DNA of 64,000 nt from Geobacter sp. AOG1 (GTDB lineage Bacteria > Desulfobacterota > Desulfuromonadia > Geobacterales > Geobacteraceae): the NCBI RefSeq assembly GCF_019972315.1, contig NZ_BLIZ01000001.1, positions 2,424,558 through 2,488,557 of the forward strand. The letters run 5' to 3'. Position numbers and translations under genes: made by a program. Positions 47,855-54,620 of the stretch are shown here, piece after piece (position 1 is the first letter of the stretch; the number at the start of each line of letters is the position of its first letter). The notes under the pieces are model-generated. The model was not told where the DNA came from. It searched no databases and saw nothing but the letters and a program-made list of their open reading frames with translations.

Positions 47855-47975
47855 AGGTTGATGTTGACATTGTGCCATGCCTGACATAGACTGCGCGAAT
47901 GCCCGCAAGGGCGGTTATTGTCAGGGTGTAGCCGTCACCGATCCGTTCACATTGGCAGAGGAGGGATGTTACCGC

Positions 47976-49967
47976 ATGCAACCGCACACAACCTCAAAGA
48001 ACAGAAGCATTATCTACGCCTTGGTCGGATTCATTCTTGGTATCGGTGCACCGTTTGCGTGGACCGTCATCCGGCTCATCCTGTTTCCCGATCCGGCCCA
48101 GGCGCTTTGGCAGCAGATATTCTCCGATATTACCAGAAGCTCCTACCATATAGCTCTTTATACCTATATGGGGGTCGGAACGGCCTGCGTGATGTCGTGT
48201 CTGGGGTTTTTCATCGGTCGTGCCTCCGACCAACTCCATGAACGGGCCGTCGAAATGGATGGCCTCCATCGTGAGGTGGCGTCACAGAAAGAGGTTTTCG
48301 AAAACCGTTACAAGGTACTGGACAACAACATCAAGAACTTCCATCAGATCAGCAGCCGGATCCAGCGGTCGATCAATGTGGAAGAGGTCTTATCCCTCTG
48401 CGCCGAGGGACTGCACGATGTCCTCGGCTACGAGCGAGTCAATATCCTCATGGCCGACGAGGGACGGAACTCGCTCCACTTCGTAACCGCCACCGCATCC
48501 GAAGGGTTCGACACGACCGGGGTGACCGTCCCTCTCGACGAACGGAGCGGGATCATCTTCAAGTGCTTCAGCGACAAGCGCCTCTATTTTGTCGAGGACA
48601 TCAATACCTACCCGAAGGATTACCAGTTGCAGCCCCCCTTCGACAGTATCCGCCCTCTCCGCTCCCGCAACTTTGTTCTCTGCCCCATCGTTGTGAAAGG
48701 TCAGTCTGTCGGCGTGTTCGGTATCGACAACAAGTTCAGTCATCGCTCCCTCAACGATACGGATGTGGATACCATCAAGCTGTTTGCCGACCAGGCCGCG
48801 TCCGCCATAACCCGCATAAACCTGCTCGGAGCGATCGACACCCTGACGGTTGAGTTGGGGAACACCTTTTCAGGTCTCCTGAAAAACCGCGAAGTGTACT
48901 CCCGCAACGTGCAGAACCTTATAAGTGCCGTCACTTCGCTGGCGGATACTACCGCCCACATCGCGTCGTCTTCGGAAAGCGTTCTCTCTTCGGTGGATGA
49001 AACCAGTTCCGCTGTCGGGGAAATATCGGTGGCGATCGAGCAGGTCAGCCGAAATCTCGATGCCCTTTCCGACGCCGTGGACAAGTCGGTGTCCGCCATG
49101 GAGGAAATCAACGCCACCCTTAAAAATGTCGAGACCACCACGGCCGTATCCCACCAGATGGCGAGTCAGGTCAAGGCGCAGGCCGACCGTGGCATGGTCG
49201 TCGTTGACGAAACCATTACGGCCCTGGCCGACATCCAGACGTCGGTAGACCTCTCCTACAGTGGAATCAAGCGCCTGAGTGAAAAGAGCAGTCGTATCGA
49301 CAGTATCGTCAACGTCATTAACGATATAACCAAGCGCACCAATCTGCTCGCACTCAATGCCTCCATAATTGCCGCCCAGGCTGGCGAGTACGGCAAGAGT
49401 TTCGGTGTCGTGGCCGACGAGATCCGCAACCTTTCTCTCCAGACCGGCCAGTCCACGGGGGAAATTACCGGCATTATCGAAGAGATCATGAGCGAATCCC
49501 GCACTGCGGCAGGCAGCGTGAGCGTCACCAAGGAACTTGTTCAGAAGGGAGTCATCCTTGGCCGGCAGACGGGCGAAGCGCTGCGGGTGATACTGGAGAG
49601 TTCAAGCCGGTCGATGGATATGACCGAGGAAATCAAAGTGGCTACCGAGGAGCAGGGGAAGAGCGTCCGACTCGTTACCCAGTCCATGGAAGATGTCAGT
49701 ACCATGACGTCACAGATATTCAATGCCTCCAAGGAGCAGGCCAAGGCCACCAAGAGCATCGTCAGGGCCATTGATTCCATTAAGGAGTTGACGGAAGAAA
49801 TGGTCGGGGTAACTGGCCGACAAGTGGAGGACGGCACCGCCATAAAGGTGGCTGTTGACGAGGTTGGCGAGATGGTTATCGGTCTTTTCGACGATCTGGA
49901 AAAGCGCCGGGGCGAGAGCCGTGCCGTGGTGGACGAACTGGAGATGATCAAAGGAAATGCGGTGTAG
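47976..49967 (+). CDS. Methyl-accepting chemotaxis-like transducer with GAF domain
   Basis: This 663-residue protein (ATG 47976; the frame opens earlier at 47877) has two N-terminal membrane helices ([18 protein letters not shown] and a second at about residues 56-76), with a short loop between them. A GAF domain follows at about 139-288 ([21 protein letters not shown]). The C-terminal half is a long coiled-coil signalling domain. Its hairpin tip is [18 protein letters not shown], deviating from the usual NAAIEAARAGE. Sensing is probably cytoplasmic through GAF. No che genes are nearby, so a role in taxis or another output pathway is open. Confidence 0.85.
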
Positions 49968-50050
49968 GCATAGAATGAAAACAAAACGTCCCCGAAAAAA
50001 TTGTTGGACTTTTTTTAAGGGAGTGTGATAAACGGTTATAAAATCTGTAA

Positions 50051-50187
50051 GGTAAGGCACGCTACTGGGAGTGGAGCCGCAAACGCCTTGCATAAACTGA
50101 ATATACCGCCTGGATTCGGCATCCGAACCGGGACGGAAGGCAATAGCCGATAAGACCGGGAGGTATCCCCCTCTCTGCTGTCGACGT
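50051..50187 (+). promoter_or_regulatory. Structured RNA leader of panB (pan-motif candidate)
   Basis: The 5' region of panB can fold. TAAGGC near 50053 pairs with GCCTTG near 50085. A longer hairpin follows: ATACC (50102-50106) with GGTAT (50162-50166), then a G-A mismatch, then CCTGG with CCGGG, then TCGGC with GCCGA, closing on CCGAACCGGGACGG. Mismatched or bulged A residues within a long stem recall the pan RNA motif described upstream of panB operons. A terminator follows immediately. The identity is inferred from position and structure. Confidence 0.5.
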
Positions 50188-50189
50188 GC

Positions 50190-50219
50190 AACGCCCTCTG
50201 TCATCGGAGGGCGTTTTTT
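50190..50219 (+). terminator. Leader terminator upstream of panB
   Basis: AACGCCCTC (50190-50198) pairs perfectly with GAGGGCGTT (50207-50215), followed by T to 50219. It ends 16 bases before the panB GTG, so it must be bypassed for pantothenate gene expression. Confidence 0.85.
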
Positions 50220-50235
50220 GCATTTGGAGCCCAAT

Positions 50236-51039
50236 GTGAGCAAACGAAAAACCGTACTCGACATCCAAAAAATGAAGGCTGACGGTGATAAGATCACGGT
50301 TCTCACCTGTTATGACTATCCGACGGCACGCATCATGGATGACTGTGGCATCGACATGATCCTGGTGGGGGATTCGGTGGGTGTGGTTGTCGCCGGTCAT
50401 GAGAACACTCTACCGGTTACGTTGGAAGAGATGCTCTACCATACGAGGGCGGTGCAGCGTGCCGAACCGAAAGCGCTTGTGGTGACGGATATGCCGTTTC
50501 TTTCCTATCAGATCGACCTGCGGGATGCACGTCTCAACGCGGGGAGACTGGTGAAGGAGGGGGGTGCGGCTGCAGTTAAGCTGGAGGGGGGCGAACATAT
50601 GGCCTCAACCATTCGGGCCATCGTCGATATGGATATCCCGGTGGTCGGCCATATCGGCCTGACACCCCAGTCGATCCACCGTATGGGTGGGTACCGGGTC
50701 CAGGGGAAGCAGGAGGCCCAGGCTGAACAGCTTCTGGCCGATGCCCGCGCTGTCGAGGCCGCCGGGGCGTTTGCCCTGGTGCTGGAGGGAATACCACTTA
50801 AGCTGGCGCGGCGCATTACCGACGAACTGAGCATTCCGACCATCGGCATCGGCGCCGGTCCCCACTGTGACGGGCAGGTGCTGGTGATCCATGACATCCT
50901 CGGCCTCTGCGAAAAGTATTCACCTAAGTTCGTCAAACGCTACGCCGACGCCCGCGCCCTTATTGCCGACGCGGTTGAGCGTTACATTGCCGATGTGAAG
51001 GGAGGAGAGTTCCCCACCGAGGGGCACTCGTTCAACTAG
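50236..51039 (+). CDS. panB: 3-methyl-2-oxobutanoate hydroxymethyltransferase
   Basis: This 267-residue enzyme makes ketopantoate, the first step of pantothenate synthesis. GTG 50236 is preceded by TTGGAG. Family segments are LTCYDYPTARIMDDCG, ILVGDSVGVVVAGHENT, VKLEGGEHMAS and GHIGLTPQSIHRMGGYRVQG. The panC start follows the stop directly. The gene lies behind a structured leader and terminator, which suggests control by transcription attenuation. Confidence 0.95.
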   Translation: MSKRKTVLDIQKMKADGDKITVLTCYDYPTARIMDDCGIDMILVGDSVGVVVAGHENTLPVTLEEMLYHTRAVQRAEPKALVVTDMPFLSYQIDLRDARLNAGRLVKEGGAAAVKLEGGEHMASTIRAIVDMDIPVVGHIGLTPQSIHRMGGYRVQGKQEAQAEQLLADARAVEAAGAFALVLEGIPLKLARRITDELSIPTIGIGAGPHCDGQVLVIHDILGLCEKYSPKFVKRYADARALIADAVERYIADVKGGEFPTEGHSFN

Positions 51040-51888
51040 ATGCAGACAGTCGAGTCAGTAGCCGATATGCAGAACCTCTCCCGGGCTGCACACAGGTCCG
51101 GCAGAACCATTGCCCTCGTGCCGACCATGGGGTACCTCCACGACGGGCACGCTTCCCTGCTGCGGGGGGGACGCCGCAGGGGTGACCTGCTGGTTCTGAG
51201 TATCTTCGTCAACCCAACCCAGTTCGGGGTGGGGGAGGATTTCGAGTCCTATCCCCGGGACCTGGCGCGGGACCGTGCGGTGGCCGAAAGCGCGGGAGTT
51301 GATGTCATCTTCGCTCCACGGGCCGGAGATATGTATCCCGCCGGCTTCCAGACCTATGTTGATGTGGAACGACTGACCCTCCCCCTGTGCGGTGCGAGCC
51401 GGCCGGGCCATTTTCGCGGAGTGACTACCGTGGTGAGCAAGCTCCTCAATATAGTACAACCCGACGTGGCCCTGTTCGGTGCCAAGGATTACCAGCAACT
51501 GGCAGTTATTCGTCGGATGGTGGCCGACCTGAACATGCCGGTGGAGGTGGTTGGTATGCCGATCGTGCGGGAAGCCGATGGCCTTGCCCTCAGTTCCCGC
51601 AATGCCTATCTGTCGCCGGAACAGCGGCAGGCGGCCCTCTGCCTCAGTCATTCGCTGCGGACGGCAAAGGAGCTCTATAAGGCCGGTGAACGTACCGTTG
51701 CGACGCTACGGGAGCAGGTTACGACGACCATCGCCGCAGAAGCGTCCGCAACGATAGACTACATTGAATTCCGCCACGGAGATTCTCTGGAGGAAGTGGC
51801 CGTTGCCAACGGCCATACCCTTATTGCGCTGGCGGTCAAAATCGGCACGACGAGACTGATCGATAATTGTTTGTTGGGAGAGGAGTGA
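51040..51888 (+). CDS. panC: Pantoate-beta-alanine ligase
   Basis: This 282-residue ATP-dependent enzyme joins pantoate and beta-alanine. It has [14 protein letters not shown] with the HxGH motif, [14 protein letters not shown], and [12 protein letters not shown]. In many relatives the sequence after HDGH reads LIRRAR; here it is LLRGGRRRG. It starts on the base after the panB stop and has no separate ribosome binding site, indicating coupling. Confidence 0.95.
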
Positions 51889-51891
51889 TCC

Positions 51892-52290
51892 ATGGAAAGA
51901 AAGATGCTGAAGAGCAAGATCCATCGAGCCACGGTGACCGGTGCCGACCTTCATTACGAGGGGAGCGTGACCATTGACAAAGACCTTATGGAAGCAGCTG
52001 ATATCATCCCCTACGAGGCTGTCGCCGTCTGGAACGTGACCAATGGCAGTCGCCTGGAAACTTACGCTATTGAAGGAGAGCGGGGTTCGGGTGTCATCTG
52101 TTTGAACGGTGCCGCTGCCCGTCTGGTTGCCCCCCGTGATCTAGTCATCATCGCCAGTTTCGTCAACATGAAGAACGAAGAGGCCCTCAATTACGAGCCC
52201 AAGCTGGTTTTCGTCGATGATCAGAACCGAATGCTGCAGACGAGAAAAGAAGTGGCCGGCCAGGGAAACCTGAAAAAAGTCGTCTGGTAG
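51892..52290 (+). CDS. panD: Aspartate 1-decarboxylase
   Basis: This 132-residue pyruvoyl enzyme makes beta-alanine from aspartate for PanC. The self-cleavage site is the Gly-Ser in YEGSVTID, which creates the pyruvoyl group. The N-terminal [14 protein letters not shown] and [13 protein letters not shown] are typical. ATG 51892 or ATG 51904 could be the start; the second fits family length. panBCD together give the full pathway from ketoisovalerate, apart from ketopantoate reductase. A terminator follows. Confidence 0.95.
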
Positions 52291-53740: not shown

Positions 53741-54199
53741 ATGGGAGAAAAGCTGATCTGCAACAACAAAAAAGCGTATCACGACTACTTCATCGAAGAG
53801 AAATTCGAAGCGGGAATGGTGCTTCAGGGAACGGAGGTAAAGTCCCTCCGTCAGGGCAAGGCAAATCTGAATGACTCCTTTGCCATGGTGCGGAGCGGAG
53901 AGGCGTTCCTCCATAACCTCCACATTTCCCCCTACGACTTCGGCAATCGGGCGAACCATGATCCGGACCGGATGCGCAAGCTCCTCCTCCATAAGAAGGA
54001 GATATCCAAGCTTTTCGGCAGGATACGCGAACAGGGCTATTCCCTTGTGCCCCTCCGGCTCTACTTCAAGAACGGTATGGTTAAGGTGGAGATGGGGCTG
54101 GCTAAAGGGAAGAAGCTCCATGACAAGCGTGAAGACATGAAAGCGAAGGACATGCGTCGCGACGTGGCTCAAGCGCTCAAGGAAAGAAACAGGGACTAG
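53741..54199 (+). CDS. smpB: SsrA-binding protein SmpB
   Basis: This 152-residue RNA-binding protein delivers tmRNA to stalled ribosomes. It shows [34 protein letters not shown] and the basic C-terminal tail [16 protein letters not shown] that enters the mRNA channel. The ssrA gene follows about 70 bases downstream, a natural pairing. The ribosome binding site is weak. Confidence 0.96.
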
Positions 54200-54262
54200 G
54201 GACTGGATACTAGGGACTGGTAAAGGCTTTACCGGTTTTCGTTACCGATTCCCAGTTCCCGA
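54200..54262. repeat. Intergenic hairpin repeat (GGGACTGG type), copy 2
   Basis: Between smpB and ssrA, GGACTAGGGACTGG and TACTAGGGACTGG are direct repeats, GGTAAAGGCTTTACC is a hairpin, and CCCAGTTCCC is the inverted end. The composition mirrors 2187-2251. Confidence 0.5.
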
Positions 54263-54268
54263 ATTTAA

Positions 54269-54620
54269 GGGGGTGTAAAGGTTTCGACGGGGATACTAAG
54301 CAAAGGTTGCATGCCGAGGTCCGGGTGGCTCGTAAAACAATCCGGGACGCATTAAGCGCCGATAATTATAACTACGCCGTAGCAGCTTAATACCCTGCTA
54401 CCGATCTGCCTGCCCTCTCCCACGGGGGAGGACAGATCGTCATTTTAGTGGGATAGCTGAGGGGAGTGCCTGTGGCCCCAAGGCGAATTTTAGCAGGATC
54501 GACCCCTGAATATCCCGGCCAGTGGAGCTTCAGGGAGCTAAAACAAATACTGGTATAAGCATGTAGACGCCTTCTGTGTACGATCTTCGGACGCGGGTTC
54601 GATTCCCGCCACCTCCACCA
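54269..54620 (+). ncRNA. ssrA: Transfer-messenger RNA (tmRNA)
   Basis: This 352-base tmRNA rescues stalled ribosomes with SmpB. The 5' end GGGGGTG pairs over seven positions with CACCTCC before the 3' ACCA, forming the tRNA-like acceptor stem. The T arm GGTTCGATTCCC is near the 3' end. The tag reading frame begins at GCC 54358 and reads ADNYNYAVAA before TAA at 54388-54390. The mature 3' CCA is encoded. Confidence 0.97.

Follow-up and report, generated by a model that had tools for sequence, protein, structure and literature searches.

Introduction

In purine and T-box leaders, one strand of the sensor domain can also take part in an antiterminator, and the two structures are mutually exclusive. 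The PyrR binding site is a small-hairpin binding site in a protein-controlled attenuator of a biosynthetic operon. Weinberg and colleagues reported the pan motif in 2010, without a mechanism, as two tandem hairpins located before panB-panC-panD, with two bulged adenosines in each stem (PMC2864571). In the passage on pan in that paper, neither a terminator nor a switching partner is mentioned, and the conserved 3' end is given no function. In two Bacillus species, leaders with this motif were reported from transcribed 5' regions (PMC4342826, PMC4634765), and coenzyme A (CoA) was listed in a 2022 review among the cofactors without a known riboswitch (PMC9971707). Among the open-licence PMC papers, we found no published mechanism or ligand for pan.

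Here we analysed a candidate pan leader from Geobacter sp. AOG1. It was located in a 64,000-nucleotide stretch of contig NZ_BLIZ01000001.1, which is called the window below and provides the coordinates used throughout.

The pan leader and its operon

The leader was located between a gene of the GAF/methyl-accepting-chemotaxis type (47877-49967) and the panB-panC-panD genes (50236-52290). On the forward strand, panB (50236-51039; Pfam Pantoate_transf, E 4.1e-119) was followed by panC (51040-51888; Pantoate_ligase) and panD (51892-52290; Asp_decarbox). The closest named PanB was 95% identical and came from a Deltaproteobacteria MAG (JAJZUQ010000055.1). The most likely start of panB was the GTG at 50236, with GGAG at 50226-50229; the mechanical list of open reading frames offered an alternative start further upstream, a TTG at 50218. 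Elsewhere in the window, 53741-54620 contained smpB and, after it, a tmRNA gene with the tag ADNYNYAVAA.

The Rfam pan model (RF01749) matched the forward strand at 50056-50140 with 38.0 bits against a gathering score of 36.2, in agreement with the pan motif suggested by the first-pass annotation, and this was the single match of the model in the host genome. Since the score was barely above the threshold, the position and the conservation of the element weighed more than the score itself. Together they confirmed 50056-50140 as a genuine member of the known pan RNA class. Other Rfam matches in 49950-50300 (ar14, PyrR and others) were far under their thresholds.

The first pan hairpin, P1 (50056-50078), had bulged adenosines at 50064 and 50075 according to both the Rfam alignment and the predicted fold. 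The second, P2 (50106-50136), had them at 50114 and 50133 according to the alignment, the fold and the consensus of relatives. In both hairpins, each strand carried one bulged A, with five pair positions between the bulges. P1 also contained an A.G mismatch (50059/50074) that was common to three genomes of the same genus and to two others (G060 and G068). In the fold, an outer stem P0 (50046-50053 with 50085-50092) enclosed P1. Thus, the two nested hairpins of the first-pass annotation corresponded to P0 and P1, while P2 followed them un-nested and did carry the bulged positions that had been ascribed to the second hairpin.

The tail GACGGAAGG (50132-50140), our proposed antiterminator strand, combined the 3' side of the base of P2 with a conserved GAAGG. 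Directly 3' of P2 and beyond the Rfam model, the fold contained a mini-hairpin P2b (GGC-AATA-GCC, 50139-50148), and a hairpin of variable sequence, P3 (50158-50175), separated pan from the terminator; P3 was also seen by eye in relatives. The fold of 50045-50235 had a z-score of -3.07, and 1 of 200 dinucleotide shuffles was as stable. A possible pairing of AAACGCC from the P1 region (50082-50087) with the 3' arm of the terminator was rejected, being lost in sister genomes on inspection by eye.

The intrinsic terminator occupied 50190-50219 on the forward strand, with a stem of 50190-50200 and 50205-50215 and a T run to 50219. It had the most pairs (11) of the three sites that the scan of 49400-51000 returned, the corresponding number in shuffles being 1.5 (sd 1.2). 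Between the end of the T run and the GTG there were 16 nt, the spacing given by the first-pass annotation, and the SD-like GGAG was inside this gap.

A candidate promoter on the same strand (50004-50032) consisted of TTGGAC (50004-50009), 17 nt and GATAAA (50027-50032), with TG before GATAAA. A consensus promoter scan found no promoter at this leader, and the first promoter pattern that we tried was discarded, as it missed this site and was found in 1 of 81 leaders versus 3.9% in shuffles. In a second scoring the site obtained 12, and 4 of 79 leaders and 0.4% of shuffles scored at least as high; scores of at least 10 were found in 25 of the 79 leaders versus 10.1% of shuffles. A transcript start below the terminator would have spoken against attenuation. 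The promoter-like site was instead upstream of the motif, which gave modest support to a transcript that would start from this candidate promoter, ahead of the terminator.

Conservation among relatives

PanB was encoded in 96 of 97 relatives. The pan family was detected in 59 of the 97 with E <= 0.001, and 48 scored above the cut-off. Among 95 regions fetched from upstream of panB in relatives, the P2 core of pan was present in 89, namely 86 by pattern and three by eye (G014, G029 and G031). A stricter P2 pattern gave 82 of the 95, and the earliest patterns were too strict. By one rule, 75 of 82 leaders had a terminator between the core and panB. A second rule found one in 85 of 86, including one (G040) that was misassigned, the leader without a terminator being that of G058.

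Neither P2 nor a terminator was found before the second panB of one genome (G006b) or before panB of G076, G086 and G088. By eye, an upstream reading frame seemed to extend nearly to panB in the last three (L074 in G076, L116 in G086 and L094 in G088). In two loci (L064 in G045 and L099 in G069), P2 was lost and the terminator retained, which contradicted a strict coupling of the two elements. In the wider phylum, pan matches were found in 32 of 297 genomes, and PanB or PanC was encoded downstream within the fetched piece at 26 of 27 loci, with neither at L217. At five loci (L211, L213, L222, L231 and L232), panC and panD came after pan, and PanB was not found in the downstream piece that was fetched.

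For the consensus structure we aligned 56 of the 86 leaders; 70 were under 90% alike, and 14 of these were omitted (a divergent group, three of odd length). The RNAalifold consensus contained 18 pairs in P1 and P2, 10 of which had changed on both sides. The covariation that the first-pass annotation had named as a check was seen, with at least one compensatory change in 10 of the 18 pairs. All seven consensus pairs of P1 had changes on both sides and P2 was nearly invariant, so the support came mostly from P1. The consensus did not include P0, P2b, P3 or the terminator, whose lengths vary. Taken together, the pan match, the compensatory changes and the recurrent terminators in relatives supported the earlier reading of this sequence as a putative pan RNA attenuator in front of panB.

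The additional elements were also recurrent. By rule, P2b was present in 61 of 86 leaders versus 15.4% in shuffles, in the forms GGC-AATA-GCC, AGC-GATA-GCT, GGG-AATA-CCC and others. A P0 stem of at least five Watson-Crick pairs was found in 57 of 72 leaders versus 42% for shuffled flanks. In five genomes (G049, G052, G055, G064 and G070), a long P0 stem was immediately followed by a T run, resembling a second terminator upstream of P2. Leaders of one genus, g13 (e.g., L061, L070 and L083), had a variant pan with GGTACGG. Their terminator ended about 110-220 nt upstream of panB, and the interval, in which conserved sequence such as TGTATACG was present, may perhaps contain a separate promoter.

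Complementarity between the pan tail and the terminator arm

The complementarity of the 3' end of the motif to the 5' arm of the terminator, a feature absent from the first-pass annotation, was first noticed in loci from the wider phylum. In the window, the tail paired at eight of nine positions, with one G.U, with CCCTCTGTC, which comprised part of the 5' arm and the loop of the terminator (50194-50202, forward strand). Over 112 leaders, the duplexes of tails with their own arms had a mean energy of -13.9 versus -12.6 kcal/mol for non-cognate combinations, and none of 20000 permutations was as good as the cognate set, bearing in mind that related sequences inflate such permutation tests. When arms were swapped within groups, the number of equally good permutations out of 20000 was 77 in f1, 62 in f4 and 7 in the wider phylum, and the result was not significant in groups f3 (3998; n = 9) and f2 (10104; n = 4). 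When each genus was represented by a single leader (n = 55), none of 50000 permutations matched the cognate pairing. In this reduced set the mean was -13.4 at the true position of the tail, -5.9 after a shift by -12 and -5.4 after a shift by +8, and pairing was weaker at each shift tried between 4 and 12 nt.

The tail was the best upstream partner of the arm in 94 of 110 leaders, versus 5.5% by position and 40% with shuffled tail letters. Two leaders (L222 and G040) were omitted from this count and from the co-variation and folding counts because the rule chose a wrong terminator for them. Alignment cells that had changed on both sides and were still paired numbered 87, compared with 58.8 +/- 5.1 in permuted sets (0 of 500 as high); the number of tail-arm pair types was less clear (27 of 500).

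The most telling cases were the rare tails that were matched both in the 5' strand of P2 and in the terminator arm. Namely, the three strands (P2 5' strand, tail, arm) read TCG, CGA and TCG in L211 and in L229, CTG, CAG and CTG in L212, and TGG, CCA and TGG in L213. In six genomes (G053, G059, G063, G073, G087 and G089), CGGACGG tails were accompanied by CCGTCC arms. Pairing was weak in four others (G061, G067, G081 and G083), and fewer than five uninterrupted tail-arm pairs were found in 15 of 147 leaders.

A later set was fetched after the idea had been formed and comprised 38 pan loci from unused genomes, some of which shared genera with the earlier ones; eight loci from already used genomes were excluded, as was one place that had no locus. 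One of the 38 (L256) was without a terminator by the rule, though one was visible, leaving 37 loci. At least seven tail-arm pairs were present in all 37, and the tail was the best partner of the arm in 36. Swapping of arms was not significant in this set (2404 of 20000), because most of the loci belonged to two uniform groups. One later locus (L269) had a very different tail together with a matching arm (GACAGGGTAGC and GCCTATCCTG).

A proposed strand-exchange model for the control of panB-panC-panD

We folded the transcript of the window as it would emerge, assuming a start at 50040. When it ended at 50202 or 50206, the minimum-energy fold contained the antiterminator and the P2 base was open; once it reached 50210, the terminator was formed and P2 was closed. 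The energy model gave an antiterminator in 68 of 110 leaders and in 23 of the 37 later ones, with just 4 of 29 in group f4. It also formed in 45% (199/441) of the controls with shuffled tails, and the energy model was therefore weak support for the switch.

The motif, the terminator, the co-varying complementarity of tail and arm, and the mutual exclusion of the alternative structures through their shared bases were computed results. Since the tail bases can be either in P2 or in the antiterminator, and the 5' arm either in the antiterminator or in the terminator, a closed P2 favours termination. It is probable, in our view, that the pan-motif RNA controls panB-panC-panD by conditional transcription termination through an exchange of strands between tail and arm, the operon being off when P2 is closed. 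Pan RNAs as a class were already known in 2010; what is added here is a likely mechanism.

The promoter, the direction of the switch, its operation in cells and its signal are inferred. P0/P1 and P2 would fold first in the nascent leader. As the 5' arm of the terminator emerges, the tail (50132-50140) would pair with 50194-50202, and the antiterminator formed in this way would open the P2 base and block the terminator, so that RNA polymerase would read into panB. If P2 were held closed, the tail would be occupied, the terminator would form and transcription would stop before panB. In this bacterial order, P2b would help to keep P2 closed. A signal that stabilises P1 and P2, probably reporting that pantothenate or CoA is sufficient, would accordingly turn the operon off. 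This mechanism appears to be general in the phylum.

Pan beyond the phylum

For panB loci of other phyla, pan was found in none of the five genomes behind them, and it was found in none of 118 genomes from the phylum of G387, which had been reached from a Nitrospirota-titled locus. The panB region of a Thermomicrobium roseum plasmid gave no pan match, whereas the Bacillus subtilis genome was among those brought in by the Rfam search. A P2 pattern was present in three viral contigs, and no pan leader could be recognised by eye at those sites.

On the Enterococcus faecium plasmid NZ_CP066401.1 (L237:32-134), a pan match of 41.7 bits preceded a DUF2520 gene, panB, panC and panD, and no terminator would fit into the leader. 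On inspection by eye, TGGGACT (102-108) was pairable with AGTCTCA (112-118), which overlapped CACTTC (117-122), and the latter was pairable with the ribosome-binding stretch GAGGTG (129-134). This one example may be a counterpart of the switch that acts on translation. A Rossmann-like DUF2520 gene was located directly before panB on both the T. roseum (L236) and the E. faecium (L237) plasmids.

Discussion

The same leader anatomy could serve a different trigger, namely a dimeric RNA-binding protein that takes hold of P1 and P2, with no metabolite involved, and we give this explanation an even chance. Tandem simple hairpins with paired bulged adenosines would suit a dimer, and a dimeric protein-binding motif was suggested by the discoverers in their account of pan (PMC2864571). 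On the other hand, direct binding of a ligand is compatible with small hairpins as well; a metabolite and a dimeric protein are equally open as the trigger. With a metabolite, a wider and still tentative proposal, which we hold to be somewhat doubtful, is that the CoA pathway has its missing RNA sensors in the pan RNAs. Their tandem bulged-A hairpins would bind pantothenate, a pathway intermediate or CoA and relay the signal through an exchange of the P2 3' strand, which would either close the sensor or open the terminator. The ribosome binding site may be the target of this exchange in Enterococcus.

The sign of the switch is not fixed by the pairing alone, and a signal could in principle open P2 and thereby turn panBCD on. 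We regard this reversed direction as unlikely, since the most conserved part of the motif, P2 with its bulged adenosines, would be intact in the terminating state only, and end-product feedback is generally the usual sense for a biosynthetic operon.

It is less likely again that the complementarity of tail and arm was a by-product of G-rich pan tails and C-rich terminator arms kept by separate constraints. Such composition had a visible effect: shuffled tails were still the best partner in 40%, and helices of at least six pairs were formed with non-cognate arms in 69%. Nevertheless, cognate pairing was above that of swapped partners, the effect peaked at the position of the tail, and rare tails had matching arms. 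Finally, it is very improbable that the terminator serves only the chemotaxis-like gene upstream and that panB is transcribed from a separate promoter downstream of the terminator, pan being no attenuator: the distance in genus g13 would leave room for such a promoter, but there was none in the 16-nt gap of the present leader with its GGAG, the four panB genes without pan were also without a terminator by the rule, and the terminator arm co-varied with the pan tail.

Conditional termination by strand exchange, with the bases named, makes the function of pan testable by mutation and in vitro transcription. Termination could further serve as the readout in a search for the trigger among pathway metabolites and in cell extracts.

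In comparison with known systems, the leader in the window resembled the pan motif RF01749 in its two bulged-A hairpins, its location upstream of panB-panC-panD and its score above the Rfam threshold. P0, P2b, the A.G mismatch in P1 and the terminator with a 5' arm complementary to the tail went beyond the published motif. The leader was not a member of the PyrR binding site family (RF00515), which scored it at a chance-level 18.1 bits against a cut-off of 54 and is associated with different genes. With riboswitches and attenuators of the terminator/antiterminator type, the pan leader would share the principle that a strand of the sensor is also a strand of the antiterminator. Unlike the purine and T-box leaders, it has two small hairpins as its sensor.
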